DNA of 64,000 nucleotides from an uncultured Bacteroidales bacterium (GTDB lineage Bacteria; Bacteroidota; Bacteroidia; Bacteroidales; Bacteroidaceae), in the NCBI GenBank assembly GCA_902802265.1, contig CADCLN010000001.1:124001-188000 (forward strand). Reading direction: 5' to 3'. This document shows positions 14,317-22,455 of this stretch, one piece after another; within the stretch, counting starts at the first letter, position 1; every line of letters starts with the position of its first letter. Under the pieces are notes generated by a model that saw nothing but the letters and a program-made list of their open reading frames with translations, was not told where the DNA came from and did no database searches. Position numbers and translations under genes: made by a program.

Positions 14317-14348
14317 TTTGGCAGTCTGAATTTTTCGTTATACCTTTG
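14317..14348 (+). promoter_or_regulatory. Textbook promoter of the GH35-like gene
   Basis: TTTG at 14317-14320 and TACCTTTG at 14341-14348, exact motifs with 20-nt spacing, 54 nt before the ATG at 14403. Confidence 0.8.
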
Positions 14349-14402
14349 CGAACAAATAAAAAGAATCATAGACGGACAACAACCAGATTAAACATTTGTG
14401 AC

Positions 14403-15986
14403 ATGAAAAGGCTAACAGTATTCCTCTTTACATTGTTCTCCTTACAGATTGTTTGGGCAGGCGACAGACTCTCGATGCTGCCGCAACCCATCCTTGGCGG
14501 AGAGCTGAGCAACTCCGCAGCCACATCGGTGGAGGACATCAACGAGGTGATGCCGCGAATGCGGGCATTAGGGCTGAACACGGTACTTGTGCCAGCCTAC
14601 TGGGAATTGATGGAGCCTGTGGAGGGACAGTTCGACTTCACGCTCATCGACCGTACCATCGAAGTGGCGCGACGAGAGCAGCTGCACGTGGTGTTCCTCT
14701 GGTTTGGCGCGTGGAAGAACTCCATGTCGTGCTATGCACCTGGATGGTTCAAGCAGGACACGAAGCGATTCCCACGGGCAATGACAGCCCAGGGGAAGCA
14801 GATGGAGATAGCCTCGTGCTTCAGCGACAATGTGCTGCAAGCCGATCTGAAAGCTTTCTCAGCCCTGATGCGGCACATCAAGGAGTGCGACCCGCAACGC
14901 GAGGTAGTCATCATGATGCAGATAGAGAACGAGATTGGTATGCTGGAGTCGGCACGCGACCACTCACCTTTAGCCGAAAAAGCCTACAAGCAGGAGCGAT
15001 GGGCAGAGCGTTACGGCACCGATGAATATGCCGACGAGAAGTTTATGGCTCTGAGTTATGCCCGTTACGTGGAACACCTGGCCCAAGCAGCACGTCAGCT
15101 TCACGACATGCCGCTCTATGTGAACGCCGCGATGAATAGCCGAGGACGCCGTCCTGGAGAATATCCCTCGGCAGGGCCGTTGGCACATCTTATCGACTTT
15201 TGGCACGAGGGATCGCCCAGCATAGACTTGCTCGCTCCCGACATCTACGACACAGGCTATAAATCGTGGTGCGGGCAATATGCCATGCCTTTGCGACCCC
15301 AAGATGGTGGAACGGTGAAGAACCGCCTTTTTATTCCAGAAAGCCGTTGCTGCGAGAACAGCGGCGTGCGTGCCCTTTATGCCTTCGGAGAGCATCAGGC
15401 ATTGGGCTTCAGTCCTTTTGCCATCGACCAGGCCAGTTCCAAGGAGACGAAATCCGTGACACAAGCCTATGCCCTGCTGCGACAAATTTTTAACACAAAA
15501 CGCCCGTTGAACACCTGGGGACTATTGTTTGACCAGGAAGACCGCGAGCGCATCATCGAGGCGGACGGCGTAGTGATGACCTGCCGCCACTACTTCACAC
15601 TCCCCTGGGACCCTCGTGCCACAGACGGCACGACTTGGCCCGAAGGCGGTGCCATGCTCATCTGCCTCGGCAAGTTCGACTATCTGTTAGCGGGCAGCGG
15701 AGTGGTCGTCGATTTCAAGACCCCCACAGAGAAGCAGCAAGAGCAGCAAAAGGCGTTGGGTGAGGATGGTTTTGCCGAAGCAGGAGGAAACACCAGCCAC
15801 GCAGCCGTCAAAGGTTTCAAAGGCAAACGCCTGGGTCTCCTTTCCGTGGATGAAGTCTCCATCGGAACGGATGGCACCATGCAATACTTGCGCCGCCACA
15901 ACGGAGACCAGACCCATCAAGGTCGTCACGCTCGCATCGGTGTTGGGGACTGGAAGCTGCTCCACATCAAACTCTATGAATATTAA
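14403..15986 (+). CDS. Secreted GH35/GH42-like beta-galactosidase with C-terminal DUF5597-type domain
   Basis: 527 residues from the ATG at 14403, chosen because it starts a signal peptide (MKRLTVFLFTLFSLQIVWAG); the upstream TTG frame overlaps the promoter box. A clan-A TIM barrel is evident: LNTVLVPAYWELMEPVEGQFDF, VVFLWFGAWKN, the acid/base Glu in MMQIENEIG (E177) and a likely nucleophile in FIPESR (E313). The C-terminal part (about 390-527) resembles the DUF5597 beta domain found on Bacteroidota beta-galactosidases. It probably cleaves beta-galactosides from plant galactan in the periplasm. The exact CAZy family is uncertain between GH35 and related clan-A families. Confidence 0.78.
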   Translation: MKRLTVFLFTLFSLQIVWAGDRLSMLPQPILGGELSNSAATSVEDINEVMPRMRALGLNTVLVPAYWELMEPVEGQFDFTLIDRTIEVARREQLHVVFLWFGAWKNSMSCYAPGWFKQDTKRFPRAMTAQGKQMEIASCFSDNVLQADLKAFSALMRHIKECDPQREVVIMMQIENEIGMLESARDHSPLAEKAYKQERWAERYGTDEYADEKFMALSYARYVEHLAQAARQLHDMPLYVNAAMNSRGRRPGEYPSAGPLAHLIDFWHEGSPSIDLLAPDIYDTGYKSWCGQYAMPLRPQDGGTVKNRLFIPESRCCENSGVRALYAFGEHQALGFSPFAIDQASSKETKSVTQAYALLRQIFNTKRPLNTWGLLFDQEDRERIIEADGVVMTCRHYFTLPWDPRATDGTTWPEGGAMLICLGKFDYLLAGSGVVVDFKTPTEKQQEQQKALGEDGFAEAGGNTSHAAVKGFKGKRLGLLSVDEVSIGTDGTMQYLRRHNGDQTHQGRHARIGVGDWKLLHIKLYEY

Positions 15987-16108
15987 CTGCTTTCCTGTTC
16001 CACGGTAACAGGATTTGAGCAGCATCATTCCATAGAACACACCGCATCATACAGCTAACAACAGAAATTTTTTTCGCAAAACAAGGAGATTATTACAAAT
16101 ATTTTCCT

Positions 16109-16116
16109 TACCTTTG
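16109..16116 (+). promoter_or_regulatory. -7 box of the hsd operon leader
   Basis: TACCTTTG is an exact match. The expected transcript start is near 16123, about 330 nt upstream of the hsdM start codon, implying a very long 5' leader. Confidence 0.65.
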
Positions 16117-16122
16117 CGAGCA

Positions 16123-16450
16123 AATATAAAAAAACTTGTCGGCCTCAACAGCCGGCGGCATAAACCTCAGCGGAGGATTTGTGCAAAAAACATAATAACA
16201 ACATAGCATCAGCTATTTGTTCAGAGAATCATGAAACGTAGGAAATTTCAATGATTGTAATATGGCGAACAAGTCAGCGGATGTCCGTGCGATAGCGCGG
16301 ACATGACTTGTATCTACATATTACGGGTATTCCTACGACCTCATGATTCAAGAGAAGAGCCATGTTTCGCGCTTCTTTTGTGTCCTGAGGTCTTTTGGAA
16401 TCCACCTGTAAGCCAACCTGAAGATATAGTCTGAGTGCTCTCAACACTAT
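16123..16450 (+). ncRNA. Structured leader RNA of the type I R-M operon (no known family assigned)
   Basis: The centre is a rod of nested helices: GAATCATGA (16226-16234) with 16341-16349, CGTAGGAA (16237-16244) with 16330-16337, GTAATATG (16257-16264) with 16317-16324, ACAAGTCA (16269-16276) with 16304-16311, and TGTCCG (16282-16287) with 16298-16303 capped by GATA. Smaller hairpins precede it (16140-16154, 16165-16176, 16203-16216). TTCAGA (16220-16225) can pair with TCTGAG (16430-16435) to close the whole. AGGT/ACCT (16388, 16404) and TTGG/CCAA (16395, 16413) would form a pseudoknot. AAGATATAGTC (16421-16431) equals the conserved 3' strand of P7 in group I introns, but no clear partner GACTA was found. 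It could be a cis-regulatory RNA, a group I-like relic or an independent ncRNA. Confidence 0.55.
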
Positions 16451-16455
16451 CGTAC

Positions 16456-17949
16456 ATGATTACAGGAGAAATCAAAAACAAGATTGATGCGATATGGGAC
16501 ACCTACTGGGTAGGTGGTATCACGAATCCCATGTCTGTACTGGAACAAATGACCTATCTCTTCTTTATGAAGATGTTGGACGATGCACAGCTGAAGAAGG
16601 AGGCTGAAGCCAACATCTTAGGTGTGACGATTGCCAACCCCACATTTAAGGAAGGTCTGTGGCATAACCCTGAAACGGACAGCGACGTAGCTTACGAATC
16701 CTTGCGCTGGCATGTGTTCAAGAACATGGAGGCCACGCAGATGTTCAACACCATTCGCAACGATGCCTTTGCGTTCATCAAGAACCTCAGCGAGGGCAAA
16801 TCGTCTGCCTACAGCCGTTTCATGCGCGATGCCGTGTTCCTCATTCAGAGTCCACGCACATTGACCAAGATTGTCGATGGTGTGGATGCTTTGGATATGA
16901 CCAACCGCGATGCCATGGGCGATGTGTACGAGTACATACTTGGAAAGATGGCGGCGAGTGGCAATAATGGTCAGTTCCGTACACCCAGGCATATCATCCG
17001 CATGATGGTGGAACTGATGCAGCCCACGCTGAAGGACGAAATCTGCGACCCTGCGATGGGCAGCGCGGGCTTCATCGTGGAGAGTGCCAAGTACATAGCA
17101 ACCCACTACAAGCAAGATCTGCTAAAGAAGGAGAACGCGGAACGCTTCAGAGGCAGCATGTTTCATGGCTTCGACACAGATAGCACCATGTTGCGCATTG
17201 GTGCGATGAACCTGATGCTGCATGGTGTGGAAGAGCCCGATGTGGCTTATCGTGACAGTCTTTCGTCGAGCAACAACGACACAGAACGCTATACGCTTTG
17301 CTTGGCCAATCCGCCGTTTTCGGGTAGTGTGGATAGTGAAGACATCAACAAATCGCTTCTTGCCGTCACCAACACCAAGAAGACAGAACTGCTGTTTGTC
17401 TCGCTGTTTATCAGAATGTTGCAGACAGGCGGCCGTTGTGCCAGCATCGTGCCAGACGGCGTATTGTTTGGCAACTCCAATGCGCACGTGGCTTTGCGTA
17501 AAGAACTGGTAGAGAATCACACCCTGCGTGCAGTTATCTCTATGCCGAGCGGTGTGTTCCAACCTTATTCGGGTGTGAGCACAGCCATACTGATTTTCAC
17601 CAAGACCAACGCAGGCGGAACTGATAAGGTTTGGTTCTACGACATGCAGGCAGATGGCTATTCGCTCGACCAAAAGCGCACGGAGGTAACAGAGAACGAC
17701 ATCCCCGATGTGATAGCCCGTTTCCATCACCTTGAAGCTGAAGCCCAACGCAGCCGTAAAGACCAGTCTTTCCTGGTTCCTGTTGACGAGATACGCAGCA
17801 ATGAATACGTGCTTTCCATCAACAAATATAAAGAGGTGGAGCGTGAAGCGATTGAGTACGAAAGCACCGAGGTGATTCAAGGCCGCATCGAAGCCTTAGA
17901 GAGTGAGATTACAGCAGCCATTAACGAGTTCCGTAGTAAATTCATGTAG
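16456..17949 (+). CDS. hsdM: Type I restriction-modification DNA methyltransferase subunit M
   Basis: 497 residues from the ATG at 16456; the seven upstream in-frame residues begin with a GTG inside the leader RNA and are unlikely to be used. The helical N-terminal HsdM_N domain (MITGEIKNKIDAIWDTYWVGGI) is followed by the N6-adenine methyltransferase domain. Motif I is DPAMGSAGF (about residue 198) and the catalytic motif IV is NPPF (about residue 285). With two M subunits and one S subunit it methylates adenine in a bipartite target, protecting host DNA. It is followed after 3 nt by hsdS and then hsdR in one operon. Confidence 0.95.
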   Translation: MITGEIKNKIDAIWDTYWVGGITNPMSVLEQMTYLFFMKMLDDAQLKKEAEANILGVTIANPTFKEGLWHNPETDSDVAYESLRWHVFKNMEATQMFNTIRNDAFAFIKNLSEGKSSAYSRFMRDAVFLIQSPRTLTKIVDGVDALDMTNRDAMGDVYEYILGKMAASGNNGQFRTPRHIIRMMVELMQPTLKDEICDPAMGSAGFIVESAKYIATHYKQDLLKKENAERFRGSMFHGFDTDSTMLRIGAMNLMLHGVEEPDVAYRDSLSSSNNDTERYTLCLANPPFSGSVDSEDINKSLLAVTNTKKTELLFVSLFIRMLQTGGRCASIVPDGVLFGNSNAHVALRKELVENHTLRAVISMPSGVFQPYSGVSTAILIFTKTNAGGTDKVWFYDMQADGYSLDQKRTEVTENDIPDVIARFHHLEAEAQRSRKDQSFLVPVDEIRSNEYVLSINKYKEVEREAIEYESTEVIQGRIEALESEITAAINEFRSKFM

Positions 17950-17952
17950 GGT

Positions 17953-19092
17953 ATGAAAGAAGGATGGGAATATAAGAAGTTAGGAGAAGTTGCAACATTT
18001 ATAAATGGTTTTGCATTCAAGCCTTCGCAATGGGTTGAAAGTGGAACACCTATTATTCGTATTCAGAATCTTAACAATCCAACAGCCCCTTATAATTATT
18101 TTAATGGTGAAGTACCAAGCAAATATGTTGTAAAGAAAGGGGACGTTTTAATCTCATGGTCTGCAAGTTTAGGAGCATATGAATGGAAAGGTGATAAAGC
18201 CTACTTAAATCAACACATATTCAAAGTTGTTTTTGATAAGACTGATATAGATAAGCATTTCCTAAAATATGCAGTGACAAGCAAACTTACCGAGATGGAC
18301 AAAGATGCTCATGGGGCAACTATGAGACATATAGTTAAGACGGATTTTGATAACACAAAAATACCTTTTCCCCCACTCTCCGAGCAGCAACATATTGTTG
18401 AAGAGTTGGACTTACTGAGTTCCATCATCGAAAAAAAGAAAGCCCAATTAAACGAACTGGATAATCTGGCGCAGTCTCTCTTCTATGAAATGTTTGGCGA
18501 CCCTATCACTAATGAAAAGGGATGGGAAGTGAAGAAGATGGGAGAAATAGGATCAGTTGAACGTGGTATTGGCATATCTAAAAAAGATTTTGTTGATAAT
18601 GGCCTGCCTTGCATTCATTATGGACAAATACATACCATCTTTGGTCCAACTACCTATAAGAATAAAACATTTATACCATCCGACCTTCTGCCCAAATACA
18701 AATTTGCACACCCTGGGGATGTAATAATGGCAATTACAAGTGAAGATGTTGAAGGTTCTTGCAAAAGTACAGCATGGTTGGGTAATTATGATATAGTAGT
18801 TGGTTCAGATGCTGCGATATTCCATCATTCAATAAATGGTGTTTTCATTTCCTATTATACAAAAACGAAAGCATTTTATATCGAAAAAGCTAAATATGCA
18901 AACGGCTTCAAAGTGACTCATATTTCAGCAAAGGAAATAGAATCAATCCCAATGCCTCTTCCCCCATTGGATTTGCAATACAAATTTGCAGAAAGTATTG
19001 AATCCATTGAACACCAAAAGGAACTAATCAAGCAGTCCATCAAGGAGGTTGAGACACTATTCAATAGCCGCATGGATGATTATTTCAACTAA
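17953..19092 (+). CDS. hsdS: Type I restriction-modification specificity subunit S
   Basis: 379 residues with the classic two-half layout. Target-recognition domain 1 starts GWEYKKLGEVATFINGFAF and is followed by a conserved coiled-coil spacer (LSEQQHIVEELDLLSSIIEKKKAQLNEL, split here into its heptads). Domain 2 starts GWEVKKMGEIGSVERG and ends with a second helix (SIEHQKELIKQSIKEVETLFNSRM). The two half-domains choose the two parts of the DNA target. It is more AT-rich than hsdM and hsdR, as usual for rapidly exchanged specificity genes. No second S gene or invertase was seen nearby, so shufflon-type switching is not indicated here. Confidence 0.92.
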   Translation: MKEGWEYKKLGEVATFINGFAFKPSQWVESGTPIIRIQNLNNPTAPYNYFNGEVPSKYVVKKGDVLISWSASLGAYEWKGDKAYLNQHIFKVVFDKTDIDKHFLKYAVTSKLTEMDKDAHGATMRHIVKTDFDNTKIPFPPLSEQQHIVEELDLLSSIIEKKKAQLNELDNLAQSLFYEMFGDPITNEKGWEVKKMGEIGSVERGIGISKKDFVDNGLPCIHYGQIHTIFGPTTYKNKTFIPSDLLPKYKFAHPGDVIMAITSEDVEGSCKSTAWLGNYDIVVGSDAAIFHHSINGVFISYYTKTKAFYIEKAKYANGFKVTHISAKEIESIPMPLPPLDLQYKFAESIESIEHQKELIKQSIKEVETLFNSRMDDYFN

Positions 19093-19098
19093 AAACGC

Positions 19099-22000
19099 AT
19101 GAGGAACTTTGACTATCTACAGGACATAGAAGCACTACGCGACCTATACGGTTTTTGTAGTGCTGCCGAGGACACGCAGCAGACCAACTATGATGTGTGT
19201 GCGCTGAATGGCAGGCGAGCCTTGGAATGGATAGTAAAGTCTATCTACACCCTAAAAGGCATCCAGACAGATCCGCGCACAAATCTGCTTGAACTGATGT
19301 CGAGCGAACCGTTTACGCAGTTCATTGGCGACGACGACAAGTTGCTGATGGAGGCTCACTATGTGCGCAAGATAGGCAATAAAGCTGCTCATGCCGGTGG
19401 GGTGAAAGGCGGCGAAGCGTTCTTCTCGCTCCTTAATATATATAATGTGGTAGGTGGCATCCTGCTTAAACTAAGGTATATCCCAAGCCTGGCACCCTTC
19501 CGCAAAGAACTGATACCAAAGAAGCCTACGCTAACGGTGGTGCCTACAGACACCGTGCCTACAGCAACGGCGCAGTTTGTGGAAAGTGTAGAAAAGGCAT
19601 ACTTGGAAACCCCGCAGAGCATTGAGGGCAAGATAGACCACAACGAAGCAGAAACACGCAAGCTGTTCATCGACATGCTGCTGGAGGAAGCGGGCTGGGA
19701 GGTACTGGACAAAGAAGGAGCCATCGTGCCCAGCAAGGCGTGCATTGAGATAGAAGTCAACGGTATGCCGAACAACACAGGCTTAGGCTATGTGGACTAT
19801 GTGCTGTTTGGCGCAGACGGAAAACCGCTGGCTGTGGTGGAAGCCAAGCGCACCACCGTGAGCCAAGAGAGAGGCAGGCAACAAGCCATTCTCTATGCGG
19901 ATTGTCTGGAGAAACGCTATGGCGTGAGACCTGTCATCTATTACACCAACGGCTTCAAGACCTGTATCATCGACGGATTGGGCTATCCCGCAAGACGTGT
20001 TCAGGGGTTCCACACAGAAGCAGACTTGACGGTATTGCTGCAAAGGCGCGGAAGAAACAACATTACAGACCTTAGCATCAATGAGGATATCACCGACCGC
20101 GAATATCAGAAGCGGGCCATCCGAAAAATGTGCGAACACTTCAACGCGATGCACAGAAGGGGCTTGATTGTGATGGCAACAGGAACGGGCAAGACGCGTG
20201 TGGCTATTTCGCTCTGCGATGTGCTGATGCGTAATGCCTGGGCAAAGAACATCCTGTTCCTTGCAGACCGTACAGCATTGGTGAAGCAGGCGCACAAGAA
20301 CTTTACCAAGCTGTTGCCCGGCGCCACGACTGCCCGCCTGGATGACTTCAAGACAACAGACAAGGAGACTGTGATGCAAGCCCGCATCCTGTTCAGCACC
20401 TATCAGACGATGATTAACTACATTGACACGGAGGAGAAAGAATTCAGCATTGGCCGTTTCGACGTGATTATCATTGACGAAGTACACAGAAGCATCTTTG
20501 GGAAATATACCAGCATCCTCAGTTACTTTGACGCGTTGATGGTGGGTCTGACGGCTACGCCCAGAGAGGATGATGACAAGGACACCTATGACAAGTTTGA
20601 ATGTGAGAGCGGAAATCCCACCTTTGAATATACGCTACAAGAAGCGGTACTTGACAAGAAACTTGTTGACAAGGTTATATTCTCGCGCACTACAGATATA
20701 TTGAAGAACGGCATCAAGTACGACAAGCTTTCCAAGCAGGAGAAAGATCAGCTGGAAAGCATTTGGCAGTATGAAAAGGCCCGATACAACATTCCCGACG
20801 ATGAGGAATATAGCCGCAACATTGAGAGCAACGAGCTGTTCAGTTTCATTTACAACATAGACACCATCGATAAGGTGCTGGTAGATTTGATGGAGAACGG
20901 CTTGAAGATAAACGGTGGTGACACCATCGGCAAGACCATCATCTTTGCCCATAGGCACAAACATGCGGAAATGATTGTTGAGCGATTCAAGAAACTCTAT
21001 CCATCGTTGGGCGATGATTTCTGCCAGCTGATTGACAACCAAGTAAACTATGCGCAGAGCATCATTGACACCTTCGAAGTGAGAGGAAAGATGCCCCAGA
21101 TAGCAGTCTCTGTGGATATGCTCGACACAGGCATCGATGTGCCGGACATCTTGAATCTGGTGTTCTTCAAGCAAGTGCATTCAAAGATTAAGTTCTTGCA
21201 AATGTTGGGACGAGGCACACGAACCTCTGAGGAAATCTTCGACGAAGGGAACACGCCAGAAGAAAGGGCGAAGAAGTGTTTCTATGTTTTTGACTGGTGC
21301 GGAAACTTTGAGTTCTTTGGCGAGAATCCCGAAGGCTTTAAGCCGTTGAAGTCTATTTCGCTCACAGAACGATTGTTCGATTTGCGGGTGGATTTGGCCA
21401 TAGCCCTACAGCATGAACGATTCCAGAATGACGATGGGGCAAAAGCTCTGCATGATGAGACGAAATCCATCCTGACGGGCCAAGTGGAAGGACTGAACGA
21501 TAAGCATATCTCCGTAAGAGAGCGTCGGGATTTGGTGGATAAATACAGGAAGAAGGACAGTTGGGTGTATCTGTCGAACACGGATGGCATTGAACTGAAG
21601 GACAGTATAGCTCCATTGCTTGTAAACAATTCCACCAATATTGGAGCCACGAAGTTTGACATTCTTATGATCAACATAGAATTGTCAACCGTCGTGGATG
21701 ATGTCAATGGTGAAAAGTCCAAGCAAGTGGTTGAAAATATAGCAAAGAGGCTGCAGGAGAAAGCAAGCATCAAGCAGGTGAACGACAAGATGCCGCTGAT
21801 AAAAGCACTTTCCAGGCATGACTTCTGGGACGGTGCTTCATTGGACAAATTGGAAAATGTGCGCAAGGAGATAAGAGATTTGGTGCAGTTCCTGACGAGC
21901 CTTTCTAATCAGACGTTCACCATCAACATAAAAGATACGGTAGAAGTCAAGGAGGCACCCTGCGATGTGCCATTGCAGACTTCTTACAAGCAGCGGGTCA

Positions 22001-22455
22001 TTGACTTCCTGGCAGAAAACAGAAAGCTGCCAGTGATTCAGAAGATTGTTAACATGGAGAAGCTGACGCTTGCCGACATCCGTGAACTGGAGAAGATTTG
22101 CTGGAAGGAATTAGGCACAAAGGAGGACTACGAAAGTTTCATTGCCAAGAGCAACATGATATGTGGCGACAGTGTGGGTGCATTTATTCGGGCACAAATT
22201 GGTGTTGACCGCCATGTGGCCATGGAACGTTTCTCGCAGTTCCTGTCAGACACGAAGCTTAATTCTTTGCAAGAGGAGTATATCAAGAGCATCATCACAT
22301 ACGTTTGTGATAATGGTGACATTACGCCTAACACGCTGCTGGAAGAAGAGCCCTTTGCTCAATACGAATGGATTGACACGTTTGGCAAGAACTTCATAGC
22401 CGTGCGAAACTACGTAAATGATATACACGACATGGTAAGAGTGGCTTGTGGTTGA
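19099..22455 (+). CDS. hsdR: Type I restriction enzyme subunit R (EcoEI-like)
   Basis: 1118 residues. An N-terminal DUF4145-like helical part (about residues 1-130) is followed by a PD-(D/E)xK nuclease domain with GYVDYVLF and VVEAKRT (about 235-250). The SF2 translocase motor has Walker A MATGTGKTRVA (about 358), motif II DEVHRS (about 459), motif III GLTATPRE, and a C-terminal helicase lobe with DMLDTGIDVPD and LGRGTRT. The EcoEI_R-type C-terminal domain contacts the MTase core. It translocates and cleaves unmethylated foreign DNA. The start is 6 nt after the hsdS stop. It appears intact, so the R-M system is probably active. Confidence 0.94.
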   Translation: MRNFDYLQDIEALRDLYGFCSAAEDTQQTNYDVCALNGRRALEWIVKSIYTLKGIQTDPRTNLLELMSSEPFTQFIGDDDKLLMEAHYVRKIGNKAAHAGGVKGGEAFFSLLNIYNVVGGILLKLRYIPSLAPFRKELIPKKPTLTVVPTDTVPTATAQFVESVEKAYLETPQSIEGKIDHNEAETRKLFIDMLLEEAGWEVLDKEGAIVPSKACIEIEVNGMPNNTGLGYVDYVLFGADGKPLAVVEAKRTTVSQERGRQQAILYADCLEKRYGVRPVIYYTNGFKTCIIDGLGYPARRVQGFHTEADLTVLLQRRGRNNITDLSINEDITDREYQKRAIRKMCEHFNAMHRRGLIVMATGTGKTRVAISLCDVLMRNAWAKNILFLADRTALVKQAHKNFTKLLPGATTARLDDFKTTDKETVMQARILFSTYQTMINYIDTEEKEFSIGRFDVIIIDEVHRSIFGKYTSILSYFDALMVGLTATPREDDDKDTYDKFECESGNPTFEYTLQEAVLDKKLVDKVIFSRTTDILKNGIKYDKLSKQEKDQLESIWQYEKARYNIPDDEEYSRNIESNELFSFIYNIDTIDKVLVDLMENGLKINGGDTIGKTIIFAHRHKHAEMIVERFKKLYPSLGDDFCQLIDNQVNYAQSIIDTFEVRGKMPQIAVSVDMLDTGIDVPDILNLVFFKQVHSKIKFLQMLGRGTRTSEEIFDEGNTPEERAKKCFYVFDWCGNFEFFGENPEGFKPLKSISLTERLFDLRVDLAIALQHERFQNDDGAKALHDETKSILTGQVEGLNDKHISVRERRDLVDKYRKKDSWVYLSNTDGIELKDSIAPLLVNNSTNIGATKFDILMINIELSTVVDDVNGEKSKQVVENIAKRLQEKASIKQVNDKMPLIKALSRHDFWDGASLDKLENVRKEIRDLVQFLTSLSNQTFTINIKDTVEVKEAPCDVPLQTSYKQRVIDFLAENRKLPVIQKIVNMEKLTLADIRELEKICWKELGTKEDYESFIAKSNMICGDSVGAFIRAQIGVDRHVAMERFSQFLSDTKLNSLQEEYIKSIITYVCDNGDITPNTLLEEEPFAQYEWIDTFGKNFIAVRNYVNDIHDMVRVACG

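Follow-up and report, generated by a model that had tools for sequence, protein, structure and literature searches.

The leader of the hsd operon

When restriction-modification (R-M) and other defence genes are expressed, above all on entry of an operon into a new host, is largely an open question. The window (the whole 64,000 nt stretch analysed, from an uncultured Bacteroidales bacterium) carries contiguous type I R-M genes in the order hsdM-hsdS-hsdR, and the question raised by this locus is whether the long segment in front of hsdM is a functional leader RNA and, if so, whether it switches. The original prediction placed a promoter box at positions 16109–16116, and the box TACCTTTG is present there; we take it to be the Bacteroidota promoter box of the -7 type, TAnnTTTG. 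Transcription would start just after position 16116. In the list of open reading frames (ORFs), no plus-strand ORF of at least 60 aa starts between position 16008 and hsdM (the domain scan covers large ORFs only). The ORF list begins hsdM at GTG 16435, which is in the same frame as ATG 16456, the likely start codon. The gene directly upstream (window positions 14346–15986) is glycoside hydrolase-like, with a DUF5597 domain, and is unrelated to defence.

The 335 nt leader has a predicted folding energy of -119.7 kcal/mol. The mean of 100 dinucleotide shuffles is -78.3 kcal/mol (sd 5.5, z = -7.53), and none of the 100 folds as well. The features of the leader and operon are listed in Table 1.

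Table 1. Features of the hsd leader and operon (window positions)
Feature	Position	Strand	Evidence
Promoter box TACCTTTG	16109–16116	+	sequence
Variable 5' domain with small hairpins	16117–16202	+	fold; differs among related leaders
Hairpin B, AUAGC-AUCA-GCUAU	16203–16216	+	sequence
Closing strand C, partner 16418–16422	16220–16224	+	minimum-energy fold; swap test
Rod helix 1, 9 pairs	16226–16234:16341–16349	+	sequence
Rod helix 2, 7 pairs	16237–16243:16331–16337	+	sequence
Rod helix 3, 8 pairs	16257–16264:16317–16324	+	sequence
Rod helix 4, 8 pairs	16269–16276:16304–16311	+	sequence
Rod helix 5, 10 pairs	16281–16290:16295–16304	+	sequence
X1, pairs with X3 (rod) or X2 (alternative)	16226–16234	+	swap test, covariation
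Y1, partner Y2	16237–16243	+	swap test, covariation
X2, alternative partner of X1	16246–16255	+	swap test
Z, H1, H2, stacked apical stem	16257–16324	+	sequence, covariation
W1, partner W2 in alternative fold; 2-base overlap with Y2	16325–16332	+	swap test
Y2, partner Y1	16331–16337	+	swap test, covariation
X3, partner X1 (rod) or X4 (alternative)	16341–16349	+	swap test, covariation
M hairpin, then U-run	16353–16376	+	covariation (helix 7); U-run count
X4, alternative partner of X3	16381–16392	+	swap test
W2, partner W1	16398–16409	+	swap test
Closing strand P, partner C	16418–16422	+	swap test, minimum-energy fold
Possible small hairpin, ends 5 nt before start codon; absent from minimum-energy fold	16426–16450	+	hairpin count in related leaders
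hsdM, N-6 DNA methylase	16456–17949	+	Pfam PF02384, PF12161
hsdS	17953–19092	+	Pfam PF01420
hsdR	19099–22455	+	Pfam PF04851, PF08463, PF04313

The rod of nested helices lies at the positions first proposed, with lengths of 9, 7, 8, 8 and 10 pairs in place of 9, 8, 8, 8 and about 9; base 16304 is claimed by both helix 4 and helix 5. The predicted minimum-energy fold of the window is an alternative structure and not the rod, and in it positions 16227–16235 pair with 16247–16256. The closing helix originally drawn between 16220–16225 and 16430–16435 is not found in this fold, which pairs 16220–16224 with 16418–16422 and 16430–16435 elsewhere. The region of hairpin B pairs with 16426–16439 instead. 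A similar pattern (GCRTNNRC-like) is found upstream of 78 of 123 related leaders.

A conserved RNA family

The Rfam search and covariance model proposed as checks were both carried out. At gathering score no Rfam family matches the leader in the window or at 40 further loci; the sole Rfam matches in those loci are one tRNA (L142) and one RNase P (L243), both elsewhere than the leader. The covariance model of the core, R1, has 161 positions and was built from 12 sequences, and its base pairs covary (see below). A second model, R2, was built from 87 members.

By DNA search a match to the leader is found in 12 of 45 genomes of the genus, the genome of the window included; three of the 11 others show an HsdM relative downstream, one of them close. 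A BLAST search of the leader against plasmids and phages gave no matches. R1 reaches much further. In the genus, 41/45 genomes have a match at E ≤ 0.01, and a single genome can hold as many as 13 copies. R1 also matches 253/399 genomes of the same bacterial family in 23 of 30 genera (E ≤ 0.001), and 31/395 genomes of the phylum (E ≤ 1e-5). R2 matches 43/45 genus genomes with up to 16 copies (E ≤ 0.001). The window leader is real and structured, and it is not private to the hsd operon. It belongs to a conserved RNA family that is new to the sources searched. The family is large (253/399 searched genomes of the bacterial family) and is absent from Rfam release 15. No description of such a leader was found in print among the titles and opening abstract lines listed in literature searches, or in the portions available of PMC8040213, PMC7366714, PMC10994844 and PMC2864571; an unnamed motif in the tables of PMC8040213 may correspond to it.

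A short core pattern searched over named genomes gave at least 119 loci, of which 80 were given to R1 and 33 match. Sorted by record title, the matches among these 80 are 29/43 in Bacteroidota or unnamed bacteria, 4/6 in Kiritimatiellaeota, Verrucomicrobia or Planctomycetes and 0/31 in other phyla. The matching records include Segatella copri, Palleniella muris, Mucilaginibacter and Terrimonas. Four loci (L223, L262, L265 and L245) are in records titled Kiritimatiellaeota and Verrucomicrobia, which suggests either transfer between phyla or mixed assemblies. In a viral collection, 4 of 80 loci with the core pattern match R1. Three of the contigs in this collection (L411, L401 and L416) are 4.2–4.5 kb in length and have an R1 match before a protein that by eye resembles the HSDR_N-domain protein at L218. 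Small plasmids or phages are possible identities for these contigs.

The genome of the window has further R1 leaders. One (G000:C37:1772-1932) precedes a second HsdM-type gene, another (G000:C19:21884-22041) a methylase-like gene pair, and a weak one (G000:C24:28247-28421) a secreted-looking protein. R2 counts six leaders in all in this genome. A rule by which copies within one genome avoid sharing X1 was considered and is not established (0/113 pairs share it, compared with about 2% between genomes).

Conservation of base pairing

In the alignment of 87 distinct members, 95.9% of cells hold standard pairs and 29 of the 40 pairs show changes on both sides. The cells changed on both sides number 753, compared with 198 in shuffles. 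Slid versions of the alignment score far lower than the real pairing, and shuffles are lower than the real alignment on four of five measures; the exception is how many further pair types the rod has, a count that shows no excess (432 of 500 shuffles are as high). H2 of the apical stem has many G-U pairs, and at two apical-helix positions G-U is the commonest pair type (UG in 49/87, GU in 52/87).

These G-U pairs bear on the proposal that the conserved segment acts as DNA, as a recombination or insertion site. In favour of such an element, the core can be nearly identical before unrelated genes, which implies that the module has been exchanged. G-U pairing at these two positions and the location of the core between promoter box and start codon argue against it, and the DNA-level element was rejected as very improbable.

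Since the covariation alignment was fitted to the model and leans towards its structure, pairing was also tested without an alignment. In this swap test the duplex energy of a strand with its own partner is ranked against the energies it gives with the corresponding partners from near relatives whose copy of the strand is different. It was run on 123 of 205 leaders, after removal of near relatives and short flanks, and a second time on 30 to 201 of the 205, depending on the strand. In the second run, with p values that treat the leaders as independent, which they are not fully, the mean rank is 0.99 for X1:X3 (p = 3.5e-27), 1.00 for Y1:Y2 (n = 30, p = 1.9e-9), 0.71 for X1:X2 (p = 9.1e-17), 0.64 for X3:X4 (p = 6.8e-10) and 0.63 for W1:W2 (p = 1.9e-8). 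For C:P the rank is 0.63 (p = 1.7e-10), in a comparison of the C region with a 45 nt P region that does not by itself single out the exact partner. Among the control pairs, made of non-partner strands, X1:X4 has a mean rank of 0.44 (p = 0.004, in the opposite direction), X2:X3 0.48, X2:X4 0.52 and Y1:X4 0.54.

Two competing folds

The paired strands define two folds. Fold A is the rod, formed by X1:X3 with Y1:Y2. Fold B, the minimum-energy fold of the window, is a nested alternative in which X1:X2 forms with X3:X4 and W1:W2. The two are mutually exclusive, and both exceed the controls in the swap test, the rod far more strongly. The rod is a covarying structure common to the family, and the alternative fold is supported more weakly. 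Because both sets of pairs are kept better than the controls, the element is read as having two states.

Predicted energies were compared in 122 of the 123 leaders (one with an N was removed). The energy of fold A minus that of fold B averages +3.6 kcal/mol (sd 9.3); fold B is lower in 81 leaders and fold A in 41, and the two are within 5 kcal/mol in only 38. Fold B has at least five X1:X2 pairs in 70/122 leaders, X3:X4 in 86/122 and both in 53/122, with at least four W pairs in 64/122. Many members lack the alternative pairs or form them only weakly.

A constitutive structured leader, which stabilises the mRNA or tunes its translation and does not switch, would have the rod as its sole functional fold, and the complementarity of X1:X2 and X3:X4 would be a folding intermediate or a by-product. 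That X1:X3 and Y1:Y2 covary far better than every other pair agrees with this. Against it, X1:X2 and X3:X4 beat the swaps between near relatives where control pairs do not, and the minimum-energy fold of the window uses both of these helices. We consider a constitutive leader rather unlikely. Since each of the two competing foldings does better than its controls, the RNA switch of the original prediction is plausible; the switching itself, its trigger and its effect on expression stay predicted. The leader is probably a two-state switch.

Promoter, start codon and readout

The position of the core relative to promoter and gene is similar across leaders. Of the 123 leaders, 120 were searched for the sequence TANNTTTGC in the 260 nt before the core. 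It is present in 77 of them, where base shuffles predict 3.5, and its distance to the core is mostly 60–135 nt. With ORF choice allowed up to 500 nt after the core, an ORF was called for all but 8 of the 205 leaders; the called start codon is 25–75 nt after the core in 148/197, and in 116/130 of those before the R-M/defence set.

Could the element be an independent, trans-acting small RNA that is merely placed beside these genes? It is multi-copy, has its own promoter box and a compact fold, and its structure ends before the gene. The regular distance to the start codon argues against this, as does the plus strand of the window leader, where a scan limited to loops of 3–8 found no terminator-like site. 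A trans-acting RNA is improbable. A leader-peptide attenuator, in which the frame from ATG to TGA at 16231–16254 is translated, is scarcely credible. This frame is present in the window and a few relatives, but ATG is at the site in 7/123 leaders and any of ATG, GTG or TTG in 28/123, and the length is not fixed. The attenuator was rejected, since the one frame tested is not a conserved short frame.

A hairpin of at least five pairs that ends no more than 9 nt from the start codon is present in 69% of 58 leaders and in 41% of shuffles, a modest excess over chance. The minimum-energy fold of the window lacks the start-codon hairpin: the bases pair elsewhere, and the arm at 16426–16430 is taken by upstream bases. 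In some leaders, L018 among them, strand P shares bases with the 5' arm of this hairpin. The overlap and, in the window, the loss of the arm suggest control of ribosome loading. A U-run of at least four follows the M hairpin in 89/123 leaders (31 expected), so a transcriptional readout is also possible.

The reading that we prefer is a family of cis-acting mRNA leaders, much used by defence genes, with two states and a translational readout; we give it a probability of roughly 0.6. The element, which belongs to the conserved RNA family, would form the 5' leader of the hsdM-hsdS-hsdR mRNA, and through helix C:P the RNA would close on itself just before the start codon. X1 would pair with X3 and form a long rod together with Y1:Y2, or alternatively with X2, while X3:X4 and W1:W2 form. 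Near P and the next 14 bases, pairings of upstream strands would compete with the small start-codon hairpin. The state reached probably sets ribosome loading on the first gene.

Two short words in the leader had suggested a link to group I introns. The P7-like word AAGATATAGTC is at 16421–16431 and GTTCAGAGA is at 16219–16227, as a decayed or derived group I intron might retain them. In Rfam there is no group I match at gathering score or at E up to 10, where the search over positions 15980–16560 gave seven weak hits, none of them to group I. AAGATATAGTC occurs in only 6/205 related leaders and the P7 partner word is absent; the segment is an untranslated leader flanked by the promoter box and the start codon, and no reading frame is seen to be interrupted by it. 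The likeness is a matter of chance. The leader is not a member of the group I introns, and descent from one has a negligible probability.

Genes downstream of the leader

Within the bacterial family, 124 of 163 leaders precede a gene of the R-M/defence set. These 163 loci are the best-scoring matches listed plus chosen regions, with at most four selected per genome besides the automatic loci, and proteins were labelled R-M/defence by single-linkage cluster, on the basis of scanned representatives, and not one by one. Two loci counted as other look like R-M leaders, L026 at a contig end and L107 before a shortened type IIG-like gene. The link to defence falls with match score. At 85 bits or more, 93/112 family-level leaders precede an R-M or other anti-phage gene; the defence set follows 26/41 at 70–85 bits, 5/7 at 60–70 bits and 0/3 below 60 bits. 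The phylum and pattern searches contributed 42 loci from outside the family, and only 7 of these have a gene of the set downstream; in this sample the link there is weak or not visible. Upstream neighbour ORFs that resemble the defence set number 0/78.

The methylase families in the set are N6_Mtase/HsdM, EcoRI_methylase, N6_N4_Mtase, D12, Eco57I, MmeI-like type IIG and C5 methylase. Other members are HSDR_N, PLD-SNF2 helicases, a ShosA/DprA-like protein and a DUF4011 Hhe/ProA-like protein. These protein families are mutually unrelated. Leaders L031 and L032 are very similar to each other (identities of this type are inflated, as only ungapped columns are counted) and precede unrelated genes, which implies that the leader moves between systems. 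Conservation of the RNA before unrelated proteins, with the same module in many unrelated defence operons, argues that the signal is probably general to the cell and not specific to one enzyme.

The original description of a structured leader RNA in front of an R-M operon is strongly supported by the covariation, the promoter placement and the recurrence before other R-M and defence genes in the family. The leader is not obligatory for such genes. Among N6_Mtase loci fetched, R1 matches 6/30 and is absent from 24/30; among EcoRI-type loci it matches 8/30. R2 adds two weak matches among loci of these two types.

The remaining downstream genes encode acyltransferases and, among weaker matches, surface and secreted proteins. 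Leaders L060, L094, L112, L146 and L028 are located before membrane acyltransferase-type genes (Acyl_transf_3 or MBOAT), assigned for L146 on similarity alone. Genes of this type do not count as classical defence genes.

Comparison with known systems

Riboswitches and orphan candidates (Rfam cis-regulatory) likewise have a conserved covarying fold, a probable 5' leader position and alternative pairings. The present leader has the conserved covarying structure that is asked of a riboswitch. It differs in that it matches no Rfam family and that its genes share a role, mostly defence, and not a metabolite or pathway; ligand binding is putative.

R-M systems can be controlled by C proteins, encoded by a small HTH gene beside the R-M genes; at this locus the hsd genes are contiguous, and the ORF list has no plus-strand ORF of 60 aa or more in the segment before hsdM. 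In the portion available of PMC12255303, RptR is a repressor of R-M systems. RptR and C proteins resemble the present leader in its proposed role, a shared control of R-M and defence genes; those regulators are proteins, whereas the conserved part here is an RNA structure.

JUMPstart/ops leaders act with RfaH, and JUMPstart is short. As in the present family, many operons that are otherwise unrelated have one leader element in common; such sharing would imply a single common factor. In contrast to JUMPstart, listed as a gamma-proteobacterial motif in the portion available of PMC2864571, the present leader is about 330 nt, has extensive covariation and is found in Bacteroidota.

A second leader class

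Twelve further EcoRI-type loci (L306, L308, L309, L313, L314, L315, L323, L327, L330, L331, L332 and L334) have a second kind of leader, also of about 330 nt. Its motif is AAGCATTYGCTATTATTTCGCG, and a strong hairpin, GATTGATAGTT..AACTATCAATC with slight differences, immediately precedes the start codon. The plan is similar, with a promoter box, a GCATTYGC hairpin, closing strands and a hairpin directly before the ATG; the kinship of both classes was judged by eye. The second-class leaders have no Rfam match.

A wider and more tentative reading takes in both classes. The two-state switch class and at least one sister class, that of the EcoRI-type methylases, might form a dedicated defence leader, taken up within one bacterial family by many anti-phage systems that are unrelated to each other. 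The expression of a whole set of defence operons might then depend on a single signal, from the cell or from infection, and more distant relatives of the RNA in the phylum would serve other genes. A shared RNA leader would, if true, be a common control layer across unrelated systems, and defence genes could be found by their leader instead of by their protein.

The second-class motif is found in 31/301 genomes of the family, and a reversed control gives 0 among the matches listed. Thirty loci were fetched and 27 have an ORF; 22 of these resemble the defence set.
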